A stretch of 24,514 bases of DNA from an uncultured Bacteroides sp. (GTDB lineage Bacteria; Bacteroidota; Bacteroidia; Bacteroidales; Bacteroidaceae), in assembly GCA_900546355.1 (NCBI GenBank), contig URCM01000044.1, positions 1-24,514 of the forward strand, read 5' to 3'. The position numbers and the translations under genes were made by a program. This document shows, piece by piece, positions 10,005 through 13,928 of this stretch. The first letter of the stretch is position 1; each line of letters begins with the position of its first letter. The notes below the pieces were generated by a model. It was given only the letters and a program-made list of their open reading frames with translations. It searched no databases and was not told the DNA's origin.

Positions 10005-12623
10005 ATGTTGACAGCTAACGAAATCCGCGACTCATTCGTAAAATTCTTTGAGTCAAAAGGACATCAGATTGTGCCTTCGGCACCGATGGTCATCAAAGAC
10101 GACCCCACACTGATGTTCACCAACGCCGGTATGAACCAGTTTAAAGACATCATCCTGGGCAACCATCCGGCAAAATACAAACGCGTGACCGACTCGCAAA
10201 AATGCCTTCGCGTAAGCGGAAAGCATAACGACCTGGAAGAAGTAGGCCACGACACCTATCACCATACCATGTTCGAAATGCTCGGCAACTGGTCGTTCGG
10301 CGACTATTTCAAGAAAGAAGCCATCAGCTGGGCATGGGAATTCCTGGTAGACGTATTGAAAATCAACCCCGGCATCCTCTATGCCACCGTGTTCGAAGGA
10401 AGCCCCGAAGAAGGACTGGAACGCGACAATGAAGCGGCAGGATACTGGGAACAATTCCTTCCCAAAGACCATATCATCAACGGCAACAAGCACGATAACT
10501 TCTGGGAAATGGGCGATACGGGACCTTGCGGACCTTGCTCGGAAATCCACATCGACTTGCGCTCGGAAGAAGAAAAAGCAAAAGTACCCGGACGTGAATT
10601 GGTGAACAAAGACAATCCGCAAGTCATCGAAATCTGGAACCTCGTGTTCATGCAATACAACCGGAAAGCCGACGGAAGCCTGGAACCGCTGCCTGCCAAG
10701 GTAATCGACACGGGTATGGGCTTCGAACGCCTCTGCATGGCATTGCAAGGAAAGAAATCCAACTACGACACCGATGTGTTCCAACCCATCATCAAAGTCA
10801 TCGGCGATTTGACCGGCACTACTTACGGCAAAGACCCGAAGGTAGACGTAGCCATGCGGGTAGTGGCAGACCACATCCGCACCATCGCTTTCTCCATCAC
10901 CGACGGGCAACTTCCCTCCAATGCCAAGGCAGGCTATGTCATCCGCCGTATCCTGCGCCGTGCCGTACGCTACGCCTATACATTCCTGGGACAGAAACAA
11001 CCCTTCATGTTCAAACTCGTCCCCGTACTGATAGAAAATATGGGACAGGCTTACCCCGAACTGAAAGCGCAACAAACGCTTATCGAAAAAGTCATCAAGG
11101 AAGAAGAAGAAGCTTTCCTGCGGACGTTGGAAACCGGTATCCGCCTGCTCGACAAGGTGATGAACGACACCAAGGCTGCCGGAAAGACTGAAATCAGTGG
11201 GGTCGACGCCTTTACATTATACGATACCTTCGGATTCCCGCTCGACCTGACCGAACTGATTCTTCGCGAAAACGGCATGACGGTCAATGAAGAGGAGTTC
11301 AACGCAGAAATGCAGAAACAAAAAGAGCGTGCCCGCAACGCCGCAGCCATCGAAACCGGCGACTGGGTCGTACTGGAAGAAGGCGAAACAAAATTTGTCG
11401 GCTACGACTATACCGAATACGAAACCCGCATTTTGCGCTACCGCCAAATCAAGCAGAAAAACCAGACACTCTATCAAATCGTGCTGAGCGAAACACCGTT
11501 CTATGCCGAAAGCGGTGGCCAGGTAGGTGACACGGGTGTATTGGTCAGCGAATTCGAAACCATCGAAATCATCGACACAAAGAAAGAAAACAACCTGCCG
11601 ATTCATATCGCCAAGCAACTCCCCGAACACCTGGACGCTCCGATGATGGCTTGTGTAGATACCGACAAACGTGCCGCCTGCGCCGCCAACCACTCGTGTA
11701 CGCACTTGCTCGACGAAGCGTTGCGTCAGGTGTTGGGTACACACGTCGAGCAGAAAGGTTCGCTGGTCACTCCGGATTCATTGCGTTTCGACTTCTCACA
11801 CTTCCAAAAGGTCACTCCCGAACAGCTGCGTGAAGTAGAACACCTGGTGAACGCTAAAATCCGTGAAGACATCCCGCTGACCGAATACCGCAACCTTCCG
11901 ATAGAAAAGGCCAAGGAGTTGGGAGCCATCGCACTCTTCGGCGAGAAGTATGGCGACGAAGTGCGCGTCGTACAGTTTGGTTCGTCCATCGAATTCTGCG
12001 GCGGTACCCACGTATCGGCTACAGGTAAAATCGGTATGGTGAAAATTCTTTCCGAAAGCTCGGTAGCTGCAGGCGTACGCCGCATCGAAGCCATCACCGG
12101 CGCCAAGGTAGAAGAAATGATGGATACCATCCAAGACACCCTCAATGACTTGAAGACTCTCTTCAACAACGCTCCCGACTTAAAAGCCGCCATATCCAAG
12201 TATGTAGACGAAAACGCCGGACTGAAGAAACAAATGGAAGAGTTCATGAAAGAACGCGAAGCGAACGCCAAGGCAAGACTTATCGACACTGCCAAGGAAA
12301 TACACGGAGTAAAAGTCATCAAAGCCATACTGCCGATGCGTCCCGAAGCCATCAAGAACATTGCGTTCCAACTGAAAGGACAGTTCCCCGAAAATCTCTT
12401 CGTAGTCATCGGAAGCATTTTCGGAGACAAACCGATGCTGACAGTCATCATGAGCGACGACCAGGTAAAAACCGGACTGAACGCCGGCCAACTGGTACGC
12501 GAAGCTGCTAAACTCATCCAAGGAGGTGGAGGCGGACAGCCTCACTTCGCCACTGCCGGAGGAAAGAACCCCGACGGACTGATTACCGCAGTAGATAAAA
12601 TCATCGAACTGGCCGGATTCTAA
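10005..12623 (+). CDS. alaS: Alanyl-tRNA synthetase
   Basis: This cytoplasmic class II synthetase charges tRNA-Ala. The 872-residue length fits the full bacterial architecture. The catalytic domain opens with the conserved [11 protein letters not shown] and continues to the tRNA-binding helical region ([19 protein letters not shown]). The editing domain carries the zinc ligands His 563 and His 567 (HSCTH) and Cys 665 and His 669 (CGGTH). The C-terminal C-Ala domain ends in the glycine-rich [19 protein letters not shown]. It is a single gene between its own promoter and an 18-bp inverted repeat after the stop. Long open frames on its minus strand are codon-bias shadows. Confidence 0.98.
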
Positions 12624-12663
12624 CCGACCGTGCATGGATAGCACACAGACGACTCAGATAAAT

Positions 12664-12733
12664 ACAGAAAGACCACCGATTATTTTTCTATGCACCCATG
12701 GCATAAGCAAATATAAATCGGTGGTCTTTCTGT
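12664..12733 (+). terminator. 18-bp perfect inverted repeat downstream of alaS
   Basis: ACAGAAAGACCACCGATT (12664-12681) is the exact reverse complement of 12716-12733. The 34-nt loop contains a nested hairpin, TATGC (12689-12693) with GCATA (12701-12705). It lies 40 bp after the alaS stop. The A-rich/T-rich base of the stem suits a terminator, although no U tract follows it. Confidence 0.6.
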
Positions 12734-12760
12734 GTCCGGCTATATAACTGCGATACCGGT

Positions 12761-12821
12761 ACGATTACTAATCGTACACGTGAACGATTACTAATCGTAC
12801 AGCGCGACGATTACTAATCGT
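12761..12821. repeat. Three identical 15-bp palindromes on a 23-bp period
   Basis: The sequence ACGATTACTAATCGT occurs unchanged at 12761-12775, 12784-12798 and 12807-12821. Each copy is a perfect palindrome with 7-bp arms around a single C. The two 8-bp spacers are ACACGTGA and ACAGCGCG, sharing only their first ACA or so, so the palindromes are conserved while the spacers are not. The spacing puts successive sites about two helical turns apart, as expected for cooperative binding of a dimeric protein. No gene overlaps them. They lie between the alaS terminator and the pilus operon promoter, about 370 bp from the latter. Operator, iteron or mobile-repeat identity cannot be settled here. Confidence 0.9.
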
Positions 12822-13187
12822 GTTTACGGTGCAGTTATATCCGATAACCGAAGCAAAAACATTTCTACCGGATTTCGGACAACTCCATTGGTCTGCGAAA
12901 AATATCCCGGTGTATGCCCCTCCCTCTCTTGTCCTCTTAGGGAACGGATGTGAAGAAGCCCGCAGACATTCATGCGGACGTTTCCGGGATGTATGCGATA
13001 CCTCCCTACATGGGCTGTTTGCCGGATATTCTTGGGTGATTTTCCGTCAATCATTTCCTACATCATTGGTACATCAGTCTGGTATTCTGTTTCATACCGT
13101 TTCCAAGGGACAGCGACCAACTTCCTGTCTTCGCCACACCCCCATACAAGAATTTTATTATATTTTTAAAAAAATCAATTCAAATAA
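12822..13187. other. Non-coding interval with no recognised feature
   Basis: About 365 bp between the palindrome array and the pilus promoter. A frame running 12820-13197 on the plus strand could encode 125 residues, but it is rich in Cys, His and Ser, has no recognisable family, no ribosome-binding region and no promoter, and begins inside the last palindrome. The last 40 bp are A/T rich and lead into the promoter. I see no tRNA, rRNA or known riboswitch. A small RNA or binding region for pilus regulation is possible but not shown. Confidence 0.4.
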
Positions 13188-13230
13188 TTGGATGTGAAAA
13201 ATATTATATCTACATTTGTGGCGACAAATG
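13188..13230 (+). promoter_or_regulatory. Pilus operon promoter with overlapping dyad
   Basis: TTGG (13188-13191), 19 bp, then TACATTTG (13211-13218) is a good Bacteroidales -33/-7 pair. CATTTGT (13213-13219) and ACAAATG (13224-13230) form a perfect 7-bp inverted repeat around GGCG, covering the -7 box and the expected start near 13225. This could be an operator or a 5'-end hairpin. The leader to the first ATG at 13353 is about 130 nt and holds a small hairpin, GTATC-CTT-GATAC, at 13310-13322. No other consensus promoter is seen before the later pilus genes. Confidence 0.7.
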
Positions 13231-13352
13231 ACAGACAGGACGAAGAAAGCCCAGTAGGGAATGTTATCGGAGGGAAAGCATACAAAGATACGACAGAAAC
13301 CGCACTTTTGTATCCTTGATACAGAAAAAAAATAAGAAAAATCAATATAATT

Positions 13353-13928
13353 ATGAAACACTTAGCTTGTATCCTTCTATTCTTTGTCGGGCTTTCGGCT
13401 TCGGCACAGAAAGTGGCTGTAAAGACGAATGTGTTATACGATGCAGCAGCCACTGTTAATGCTGGAGTAGAAATTGGTCTTGCGCCGAAATGGACGTTGG
13501 ATGTATCAGGAAACCTGAATGCATGGGATATGTCTCATGGACGCAAATGGAAACACTGGTTTGTACAGCCCGAAGCACGCTACTGGCTTTGCGACCGTTT
13601 TATGGGTCATTTCCTTGCCGTACATGCACACGGAGGGCAATTTAACATCGGGAACCTGAAGAATGACATTTCTTTCTTGGGCACAGATTTTTCCAAACTC
13701 TCCGACAGCCGTTATCAGGGATGGTTTGCCGGAGCTGGCATTGCCTATGGGTATGCCCTTCCGTTAGGAAAACATTGGAATGCCGAATTCGAAATTGGCA
13801 TCGGTTATGCTTATTCACACTACGACCGTTTCGAGTGTGAAGGCTGTGGACAAAAGGTCGAAGAAGGCAAGCATCATAACTACTTCGGACTTACCAAGGC
13901 AGCCATCAGCCTGGTCTACTTATTCTGA
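13353..13928 (+). CDS. DUF3575 family outer-membrane protein of the pilus operon
   Basis: A 191-residue protein with an N-terminal signal peptide (cleavage near SASAQ, residue 19) and alternating hydrophobic and aromatic strands that suggest a small outer-membrane beta-barrel. The mature start KVAVKTNVLYDAA and the C-terminal LVYLF, an aromatic end typical of barrels, fit DUF3575. Members commonly head FimA/Mfa-type pilus operons in Bacteroidales, but their biochemical role is unknown. An ECEGCG pair of cysteines near residue 160 is unusual for this class and could form a disulfide. It is the first gene after the operon promoter, and the DUF3868 gene follows 74 bp later. Confidence 0.85.
   Translation: MKHLACILLFFVGLSASAQKVAVKTNVLYDAAATVNAGVEIGLAPKWTLDVSGNLNAWDMSHGRKWKHWFVQPEARYWLCDRFMGHFLAVHAHGGQFNIGNLKNDISFLGTDFSKLSDSRYQGWFAGAGIAYGYALPLGKHWNAEFEIGIGYAYSHYDRFECEGCGQKVEEGKHHNYFGLTKAAISLVYLF

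Follow-up and report, generated by a model that had tools for sequence, protein, structure and literature searches.

Palindromic array between alaS and a fimbrial operon

The DNA analysed here (the window) comprises 24,514 nt of contig URCM01000044.1 from an uncultured Bacteroides sp. Its alaS gene extends to position 12623, with a separate terminator-like hairpin behind it (arms 12664-12681 / 12716-12733), and 13353 is the first position of a fimbrial operon (DUF3575, DUF3868, Fimbrillin_C/FimA, Mfa2). The interval between them harbours the subject of this study, a tandem array of three exact copies of ACGATTACTAATCGT (12761-12775, 12784-12798 and 12807-12821; start-to-start distances of 23 and 23 bp), an odd-length palindrome with 7-bp arms flanking a central C. 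An initial annotation of three identical 15-bp perfect palindromes with an exact 23-bp period is thereby confirmed at 12761-12821. The array belongs to a dispersed family which, in some other genomes, is coupled to one clade of HU-HIG genes. The element is composed as follows:

12740..12842, strand not applicable: whole element (left cap, three palindrome units, right cap), an imperfect palindrome centred at 12791
12740..12750, strand not applicable: left cap CTATATAACTG, at a distance of exactly 23 bp from core 1
12761..12775, strand not applicable: palindrome unit 1, ACGATTACTAATCGT, with core GATTACTAATC at 12763-12773
12776..12783, strand not applicable: spacer 1, ACACGTGA, as read from the sequence
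12784..12798, strand not applicable: palindrome unit 2, core at 12786-12796
12799..12806, strand not applicable: spacer 2, ACAGCGCG, resembling family spacers such as ACAGCGTG
12807..12821, strand not applicable: palindrome unit 3, core at 12809-12819
12832..12842, strand not applicable: right cap CAGTTATATCC, which mirrors the left one and lies 23 bp from core 3

No further ACGATTACTAATCGT site is present in the window, even with three mismatches allowed. The six two-strand matches to ACGATTACTAATCGT in the window were equalled in none of 100 shuffles, and a chance origin of the triple palindrome was rejected on this result. The larger palindrome enclosing the three cores has arms ATATAACTGC / GCAGTTATAT at 12742-12751 / 12831-12840, and 33 of 49 positions are complementary about its centre, a value matched by 1 of 2000 random centres. 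The outer caps keep the same 23-bp register as the cores. Predicted folding of 12735-12860 is stronger than that of shuffles on both strands (z -5.5 and -6.0).

A dispersed family of arrays in Bacteroidales

The window array is a member of a dispersed, mostly intergenic and patchily distributed family of palindromic arrays, carried by some Bacteroidaceae. When one genome per species was scanned for pairs of GATTACTAATC cores separated by 6-20 bp, at least 120 stretches were obtained; among the 120 listed, all titled Bacteroidales or a group within it, 118 have a period of exactly 23 bp, with L050 and L115 (core period 18 bp) excluded from this count. In nine array-bearing genomes the core GATTASTAATC occurs 83, 113, 16, 9, 10, 6, 13, 124 and 32 times, and its reversed control 0-1 times per genome. 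Of 251 genomes sampled from the family, 9 contain two-unit arrays with C/G centres (A/T-centre arrays lying outside that query). Two-unit arrays irrespective of centre occur in a single one of 393 genomes sampled across the order, namely the centre genome, and in 4 of 61 genomes of one genus. At least 30 array positions are present in the single-contig genome G269 (4,242,803 bp), and those listed are evenly spread (Kolmogorov-Smirnov p 0.38). G241 and G253, neither of which has two-unit arrays, yielded no period-23 palindrome pair in 400 kb per genome, and a universal 23-bp palindrome architecture was rejected on these grounds.

Three matches to viral contigs of IMG/VR (L001-L003) were put aside, having periods of 24, 24 and 30 bp; those at L002:5729-5763 and L001:10339-10373 carry GATTACTAATC-type cores with a 24-bp period, and L003 resembles a coding repeat. 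Another palindromic repeat family was observed in G269 (e.g., C1:1473211-1473255), consisting of CGGATTTGTAATCCG-type sites and their mirrors, some of them 29-34 bp apart.

The 118 distinct arrays contain 2, 3, 4, 5 or 6 units in 13, 56, 42, 3 and 4 cases, respectively, up to three mismatches being tolerated per added unit. Two main flank types are distinguishable, AC..GT (that of the window) and AA..TT, with centres of C/G (class S) or A/T (class W). The 258 family spacers are variable, their central two positions tending to G and C, and have an equal profile in either orientation. Among the 233 units adjoining the search-required pair in 117 arrays, 103 have no mismatch, 13 one, 4 two and 2 three, the other 111 being like background or caps. 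Centres of exact neighbouring units were the same in 172 of 212 comparisons (in which one unit may be counted more than once), flipped C/G in 32 and changed to A/T in 8. Comparison of orthologous sites between two related species (L006/L010, L008/L029, L011/L032, L024/L087) shows that most cores are kept and that spacers and flanks have diverged; all these loci were found via the array search, so that arrays lost on one side are invisible. Retention of cores while spacers drift fits well with selection acting on the palindrome itself, as the initial annotation had proposed.

Gene context was assigned with an ad hoc caller of open reading frames (ORFs): 45 of the 120 listed arrays lie between codirectional, 24 between convergent and 20 between divergent genes, 18 abut a locus edge and 13 fall within called ORFs, most of them short (81-268 aa). 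Following omission of the edge and in-ORF cases, the orientation of the 89 intergenic arrays fits 2:1:1 (chi-square p 0.83). This lack of bias speaks against a function of the array as RNA, i.e., as transcribed hairpins stabilising or terminating messages, for which the strong folding on both strands and the position of the window copy behind a terminator hairpin could be adduced. The spacer profile, identical in both orientations, and the prevalence of C/G flips over changes to A/T likewise disagree with an RNA function, and the window is devoid of Rfam matches at gathering scores; such a function is considered improbable. Membership in a known RNA family was rejected on the latter result; with E up to 5, positions 12500-13400 gave five sub-threshold Rfam matches, none of them over the array.

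The initial annotation had tied the array to the pilus operon, and in favour of a local operator for a pilus regulator one may cite the location of the window array between alaS and the fimbrial (DUF3575, FimA-type, Mfa2) operon, as well as one of the at least 30 listed arrays of G269, located ~1 kb 5' of the best-matching DUF3575 gene. The annotation had itself named hundreds of copies at random intergenic sites as an outcome that would count against its interpretation, and the many copies at scattered intergenic sites largely correspond to this. Comparison of orthologous alaS-pilus intervals, which it had suggested as a check, covered 30 post-alaS loci, one per genome (alaS matched in 58 of 61 genomes of the genus; up to 1.5 kb beyond the match, some loci ending at contig ends and one being largely N), and the array core was present downstream of alaS in none of them, a result for post-alaS loci and not for pilus loci surveyed genome by genome. 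A distance of ~40 kb separates alaS from the best DUF3575 match in G269. Since arrays occur at dozens of unrelated, mostly intergenic sites and no core is found in the 30 post-alaS loci, the pilus link is unsupported; scattered contexts, the layout in G269 and the post-alaS loci together led to dismissal of an alaS or pilus operator, which is regarded as highly improbable. A special role of the window copy for alaS or the pilus operon is not evident, and this striking array beside a pilus operon is probably not a pilus operator. An iteron-like replication site, also considered in the annotation, was ruled out by the dozens of chromosomal copies in array-bearing genomes.

HU-HIG genes as candidate partners of the arrays

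In search of a partner gene, 456 ORFs within 1.5 kb of arrays were clustered. The cluster represented in most genomes (7 loci, 6 genomes) comprises a ~150-aa protein beginning MIKYSLVMRG or similar, with the array on the 5' side at all seven loci; the runner-up (sensor/regulator-type proteins, 9 ORFs in 5 genomes) has mixed positions relative to the arrays. All six HU-like proteins tested match Pfam family PF18291 (HU-HIG) with 60.6-81.1 bits (cut-off 26.2), and the domain of the partner protein has the HU fold. A PDB sequence search with the HU-HIG protein gave a single irrelevant match (E 0.19).

Homologues of the L020 protein were sought in 15 genomes, 14 array-bearing ones and G297, which is without a two-unit array. 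Those with at least 60 % identity were found in G001, G002, G003, G004, G269 (two) and G298; all seven have an upstream array, as does a 40 % homologue in G005. Within the genus sample, such homologues (≥60 %) occur in precisely the 4 of 61 genomes that have arrays (p 1.9e-6, kinship ignored), and within the 251-genome family sample in G001, G002, G003, G004 and G033. G033 has no C/G-centre pairs, but a GATTAWTAATC array upstream of its HU-HIG gene.

For a tree of HU-HIG proteins, 23 of 33 loci tried were used, ten being omitted (one for want of an ORF, others owing to a wrong frame, choice of a neighbouring ORF or greater divergence), among them G137 (48 %, 108 bp of upstream sequence only). 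Nine proteins, i.e., those of eight genes with at least 60 % identity and of G293 (48 %), form one clade (support 100/100; 90/91 without the long-branch G293), and a 23-bp array is located upstream of all nine genes. Seven of them (62-100 % identity to the query) have the last core 69-71 bp from the ATG; this distance is 265 bp in G269a and, in G293, 131 bp (from a degenerate fourth unit) or 154 bp (from the last perfect unit). The other 54 of 63 non-redundant HU-HIG loci (4 of the 63 with <300 bp of upstream sequence) have a 23-bp array within 300 bp in two cases (G005, G687) and a 22-bp array of other sequence in two (G687, G689). The contrast for 23-bp arrays, 9/9 versus 2/54, yields a Fisher value of 2e-9, which ignores kinship and locus selection. 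In 199 kb of HU-HIG loci a uniform scan detected 9 period-23 and 2 period-22 arrays, along with a simple-repeat artefact in L306; since this set includes the clade genes, the scan is not an independent test. In comparison DNA it detected one array at alaS loci (107 kb, period 21), none at Y1 loci (25 kb), one in G241 (period 22) and none in G253 (400 kb each).

Array type co-varies with the HU-HIG gene in some genomes. G269 possesses two clade genes, one at an S array and one at a W array, with both classes also present elsewhere. Arrays of G004 are predominantly of class W (two-unit matches: 97 with any centre, 4 with C/G centres), and a W array adjoins its HU-HIG gene. In G293, AAGGTTAWTAACCTT units with a 23-bp period are located upstream of the HU-HIG gene, and related arrays are found at two other places in the 800 kb sampled (one with three perfect units, one with four units, two of them perfect). 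The corresponding degenerate pattern gave zero matches in the reversed control and in 400 kb each of G241 and G253, and three in G269, whose W arrays fit it.

In view of this genomic coupling to one HU-HIG clade and of the co-varying palindromes of G269 and G293, an HU-HIG dimer is the likeliest candidate for reading the arrays; location of the array upstream of the gene suggests that the encoded protein recognises them. The window array would accordingly represent one satellite copy within a dispersed family of arrays bound by a dimer of this HU-like protein, a reading to which we assign a probability of roughly 0.57. Each 23-bp unit would provide one palindromic binding site, GATTA[C/G]TAATC, bordered by short flanks (ACG..CGT in the window), and the predicted binder, an HU-like dimer from one clade of HU-HIG (PF18291), would fill successive sites about two helical turns apart, possibly in a cooperative manner. 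The cooperative dimeric regulator postulated in the initial annotation fits well with this dimer-type candidate, so that its proposals on selection and binding are favoured and that on the pilus is not. The array just upstream of the HU-HIG gene may serve autoregulation, and the remaining arrays would be scattered copies, arisen partly via transposon-like copying; a role of the caps and a role at the chromosome level are likewise conceivable. The source genome of the window is predicted to carry an HU-HIG clade gene with a ACGATTASTAATCGT array.

Several observations weigh against recognition by the HU-HIG protein. The coupling was read from other genomes, the window's own source genome being outside those searched. 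Among the 14 array-bearing genomes searched, eight lack a homologue with ≥60 % identity: G005 (40 %), G006 (32 %), G007, G008 (28 %), G009, G039, G061 and G183. Five of these (G007, G009, G039, G061, G183) belong to the nine array-positive genomes of the family sample, and two have arrays of the window-like AC/GT type (G006, 6 cores; G007, 13 cores). G008, with 124 cores, has a single HU-HIG match, which is without an array. In the AA/TT class an array is found less than 300 bp from an HU-HIG gene in G687 only (149 bp); in G009 and G039 the distances are ~0.5 and ~0.9 kb. G692 and G693 (AC/GT type; L027 query only) have no GATTANTAATC array at their HU-HIG loci. Furthermore, S and W classes alternate within the clade (G002 S, G033 W), G293 attaches to it on a long branch, dispersed arrays of G033 were absent from the 132.5 kb (~5 %) sampled, and parts of the array family resemble ordinary miniature inverted-repeat transposable elements (MITEs). 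Genomes seemingly without the partner gene are mainly of a rumen-type subclass, and many of the array-bearing genomes lacking a ≥60 % homologue are fragmented metagenome assemblies.

The 8 of 14 genomes without a close homologue could also point to a chromosome-organising site for some other protein, with the HU-HIG gene as just one target, and the wide, even spread and core selection would suit any dedicated DNA-binding protein. The coincidence of homologue and arrays in the genus sample and the co-variation in G269 and G293 oppose this, and little probability is attached to it.

The resemblance to MITEs is most apparent in copies that share sequence beyond the array. Nine copies in G001, and a single copy from each of two further genomes, share ~105-220 bp at mostly 85-94 % identity; at least L045 and L073 have ends that match, GGRTCRRTCYGAA..TTCAGACYGA(A)TCC. 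W-class copies in G269 are alike over up to ~320 bp, and the right flank of several of them is the truncated 5' end of the HU-HIG gene. Some array copies hence appear to have spread by transposon-like copying. A MITE- or REP-like hairpin family moved by some transposase, with the HU-HIG gene as a passenger or chance capture site, would also account for the patchy distribution, the array-bearing genomes without a clade gene and the even spread in G269. It is nevertheless regarded as rather unlikely: the array core is conserved rather than terminal repeats, no consistent target-site duplication was seen by eye around the G001-type copies, whose outer flanks are unrelated, and orthologous sites keep their cores while flanks drift. 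Further arguments against it are that seven genes with 62-100 % identity to the query keep the last core 69-71 bp from the ATG, and that the variant palindrome found at the divergent HU-HIG gene of G293 recurs at other sites of this genome. The window copy has caps as its sole terminal feature, ends resembling terminal inverted repeats being present in a subset of the G001 copies. A TATA.[CT]TG cap is present on at least one side of 21 of 58 AC/GT-type arrays with full flanks, and on both sides of 2; such caps are frequent in G269, and G002 copies bear other inverted flanks.

Two W-class arrays of G269 (L201 and L213) each have, next to their left cap, a copy of one insertion sequence, which we take to be ISAs1-like. 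Both copies terminate at an identical point (98 % identity along 814 aligned bp, array included), which suggests targeted insertion.

Beyond the clade, a second HU-HIG gene of G687 has a 22-bp array of CTCTATAGAG 165 bp upstream, which recurs on another contig (L018:61-114) and is absent from six other G687 loci tested. The presence of GATTANTAATC, GGTTAWTAACC, CTCTATAGAG and GACTCGTGAGTC arrays at HU-HIG genes would be in line with private palindromes of HU-HIG paralogues. HU-HIG proteins, a Bacteroidota expansion of HU/IHF, might then be sequence-specific partners of their own 22-23-bp palindromes, upstream and as satellites, with several systems per genome, a generalisation offered tentatively and with some doubt. 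Further 22-bp-period arrays were observed at L339 (G689; GACTCGTGAGTC, 266 bp upstream of the HU-HIG gene), L316 (G693; TATCCAAGGATA, ~0.7 kb from it), L331 (G692; AGGATNATCCT, ~0.7 kb), L333 (G061; AAGGACTAGTCCTT, ~0.5 kb) and L340 (G006; GAGTTGGGCAACTC, downstream of the HU-HIG match), none of them found in the few other loci checked per genome. Two apparently corresponding HU-HIG loci carry a 23-bp GATTACTAATC array (L326, G009) and a 22-bp GGACTAGTCC array (L333, G061), respectively, with similar sequence adjoining the arrays, possibly reflecting array turnover at one site.

Relation to known repeat systems and DNA-binding proteins

REP/REPIN-RAYT systems comprise, according to the parts of the reports consulted, dispersed intergenic palindromes, some at an associated gene, with gene and repeats co-evolving and co-occurring (PMC2817692, PMC3733652). 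The array family shares the many dispersed intergenic palindromes, some of them at an associated gene, and differs from what these parts describe in the absence of a GTAG tag, in an associated gene of HU fold rather than a transposase, and in tandem arrangement at a fixed 23 bp. No conserved tetranucleotide tag beside the palindrome is evident in the profile of 258 spacers. Y1_Tnp is present in 6 of 14 array-bearing genomes versus 2 of 16 in which two-unit arrays are absent or were not found (including G297), and the GATTANTAATC core is absent from the 8 Y1-transposase loci listed of 10 matches. Membership in REP/RAYT was rejected in view of the missing GTAG-like tag and these 8 loci without core, and the arrays are best read as a putative non-transposase parallel to REP/RAYT. 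A degenerate REP-type hairpin with GTAG tag does occur in the window (12986-13010, reverse strand); its intact form, GGGCGTATGCGATACGCCC, was seen in 6 of 20 pieces of 20 kb sampled from G269, a genome that also encodes a Y1 transposase similar in size to RAYT (C1:3112897, 172 aa).

The BrickBuilt MITE of Porphyromonas gingivalis, as described in the sections consulted, consists of tandem 23-nt units with leader/tail, predicted stem-loops and IS5-family-like ends (PMC4596501). Occurrence in Bacteroidales, intergenic location, 23-nt tandem units, flanking leader/tail and predicted stem-loops are common to both. In contrast, the BrickBuilt unit consensus AGAYCATARTATCCTCTCRTRTG is without GATTANTAATC, whole units are repeated with no spacers, the ends are IS5-family-like, and no link to HU-HIG was found in these sections (PMC4596501). 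Its unit consensus and GAGACCTTTGCA-type terminal repeats, as given there, are absent from window positions 12740-12842, and identity with BrickBuilt was rejected for this reason.

The partner genes belong to HU-HIG (PF18291) by Pfam score and HU fold. HU-type proteins are usually regarded as weakly specific DNA benders, and we know of no report of sequence-specific target arrays for HU-HIG proteins; the literature listed under that name in PMC concerns a B. vulgatus strain and gluten, and clades of HU/IHF are said to be treated in a paper by Burroughs, Aravind and colleagues. Many chromosomal palindromes read by one dimeric protein are familiar from ParB-parS, MatP-matS and SlmA sites. The array family resembles these in its many chromosomal palindromes and one candidate dimeric protein, and is unlike them in its tandem phased arrays, patchy host range and HU-type candidate. 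Searches of PMC with exact core-variant strings gave no relevant paper among the matches listed, subscription literature being outside their scope; within the PMC literature searched, the candidate partner gene, belonging to one HU-HIG clade, is newly found.

If the proposed recognition is true, an HU-HIG clade travelling with matching phased arrays would represent a new sequence-addressed HU system in gut bacteria. The arrays would then give HU-HIG paralogues a testable function and provide REP/RAYT with a non-transposase parallel.
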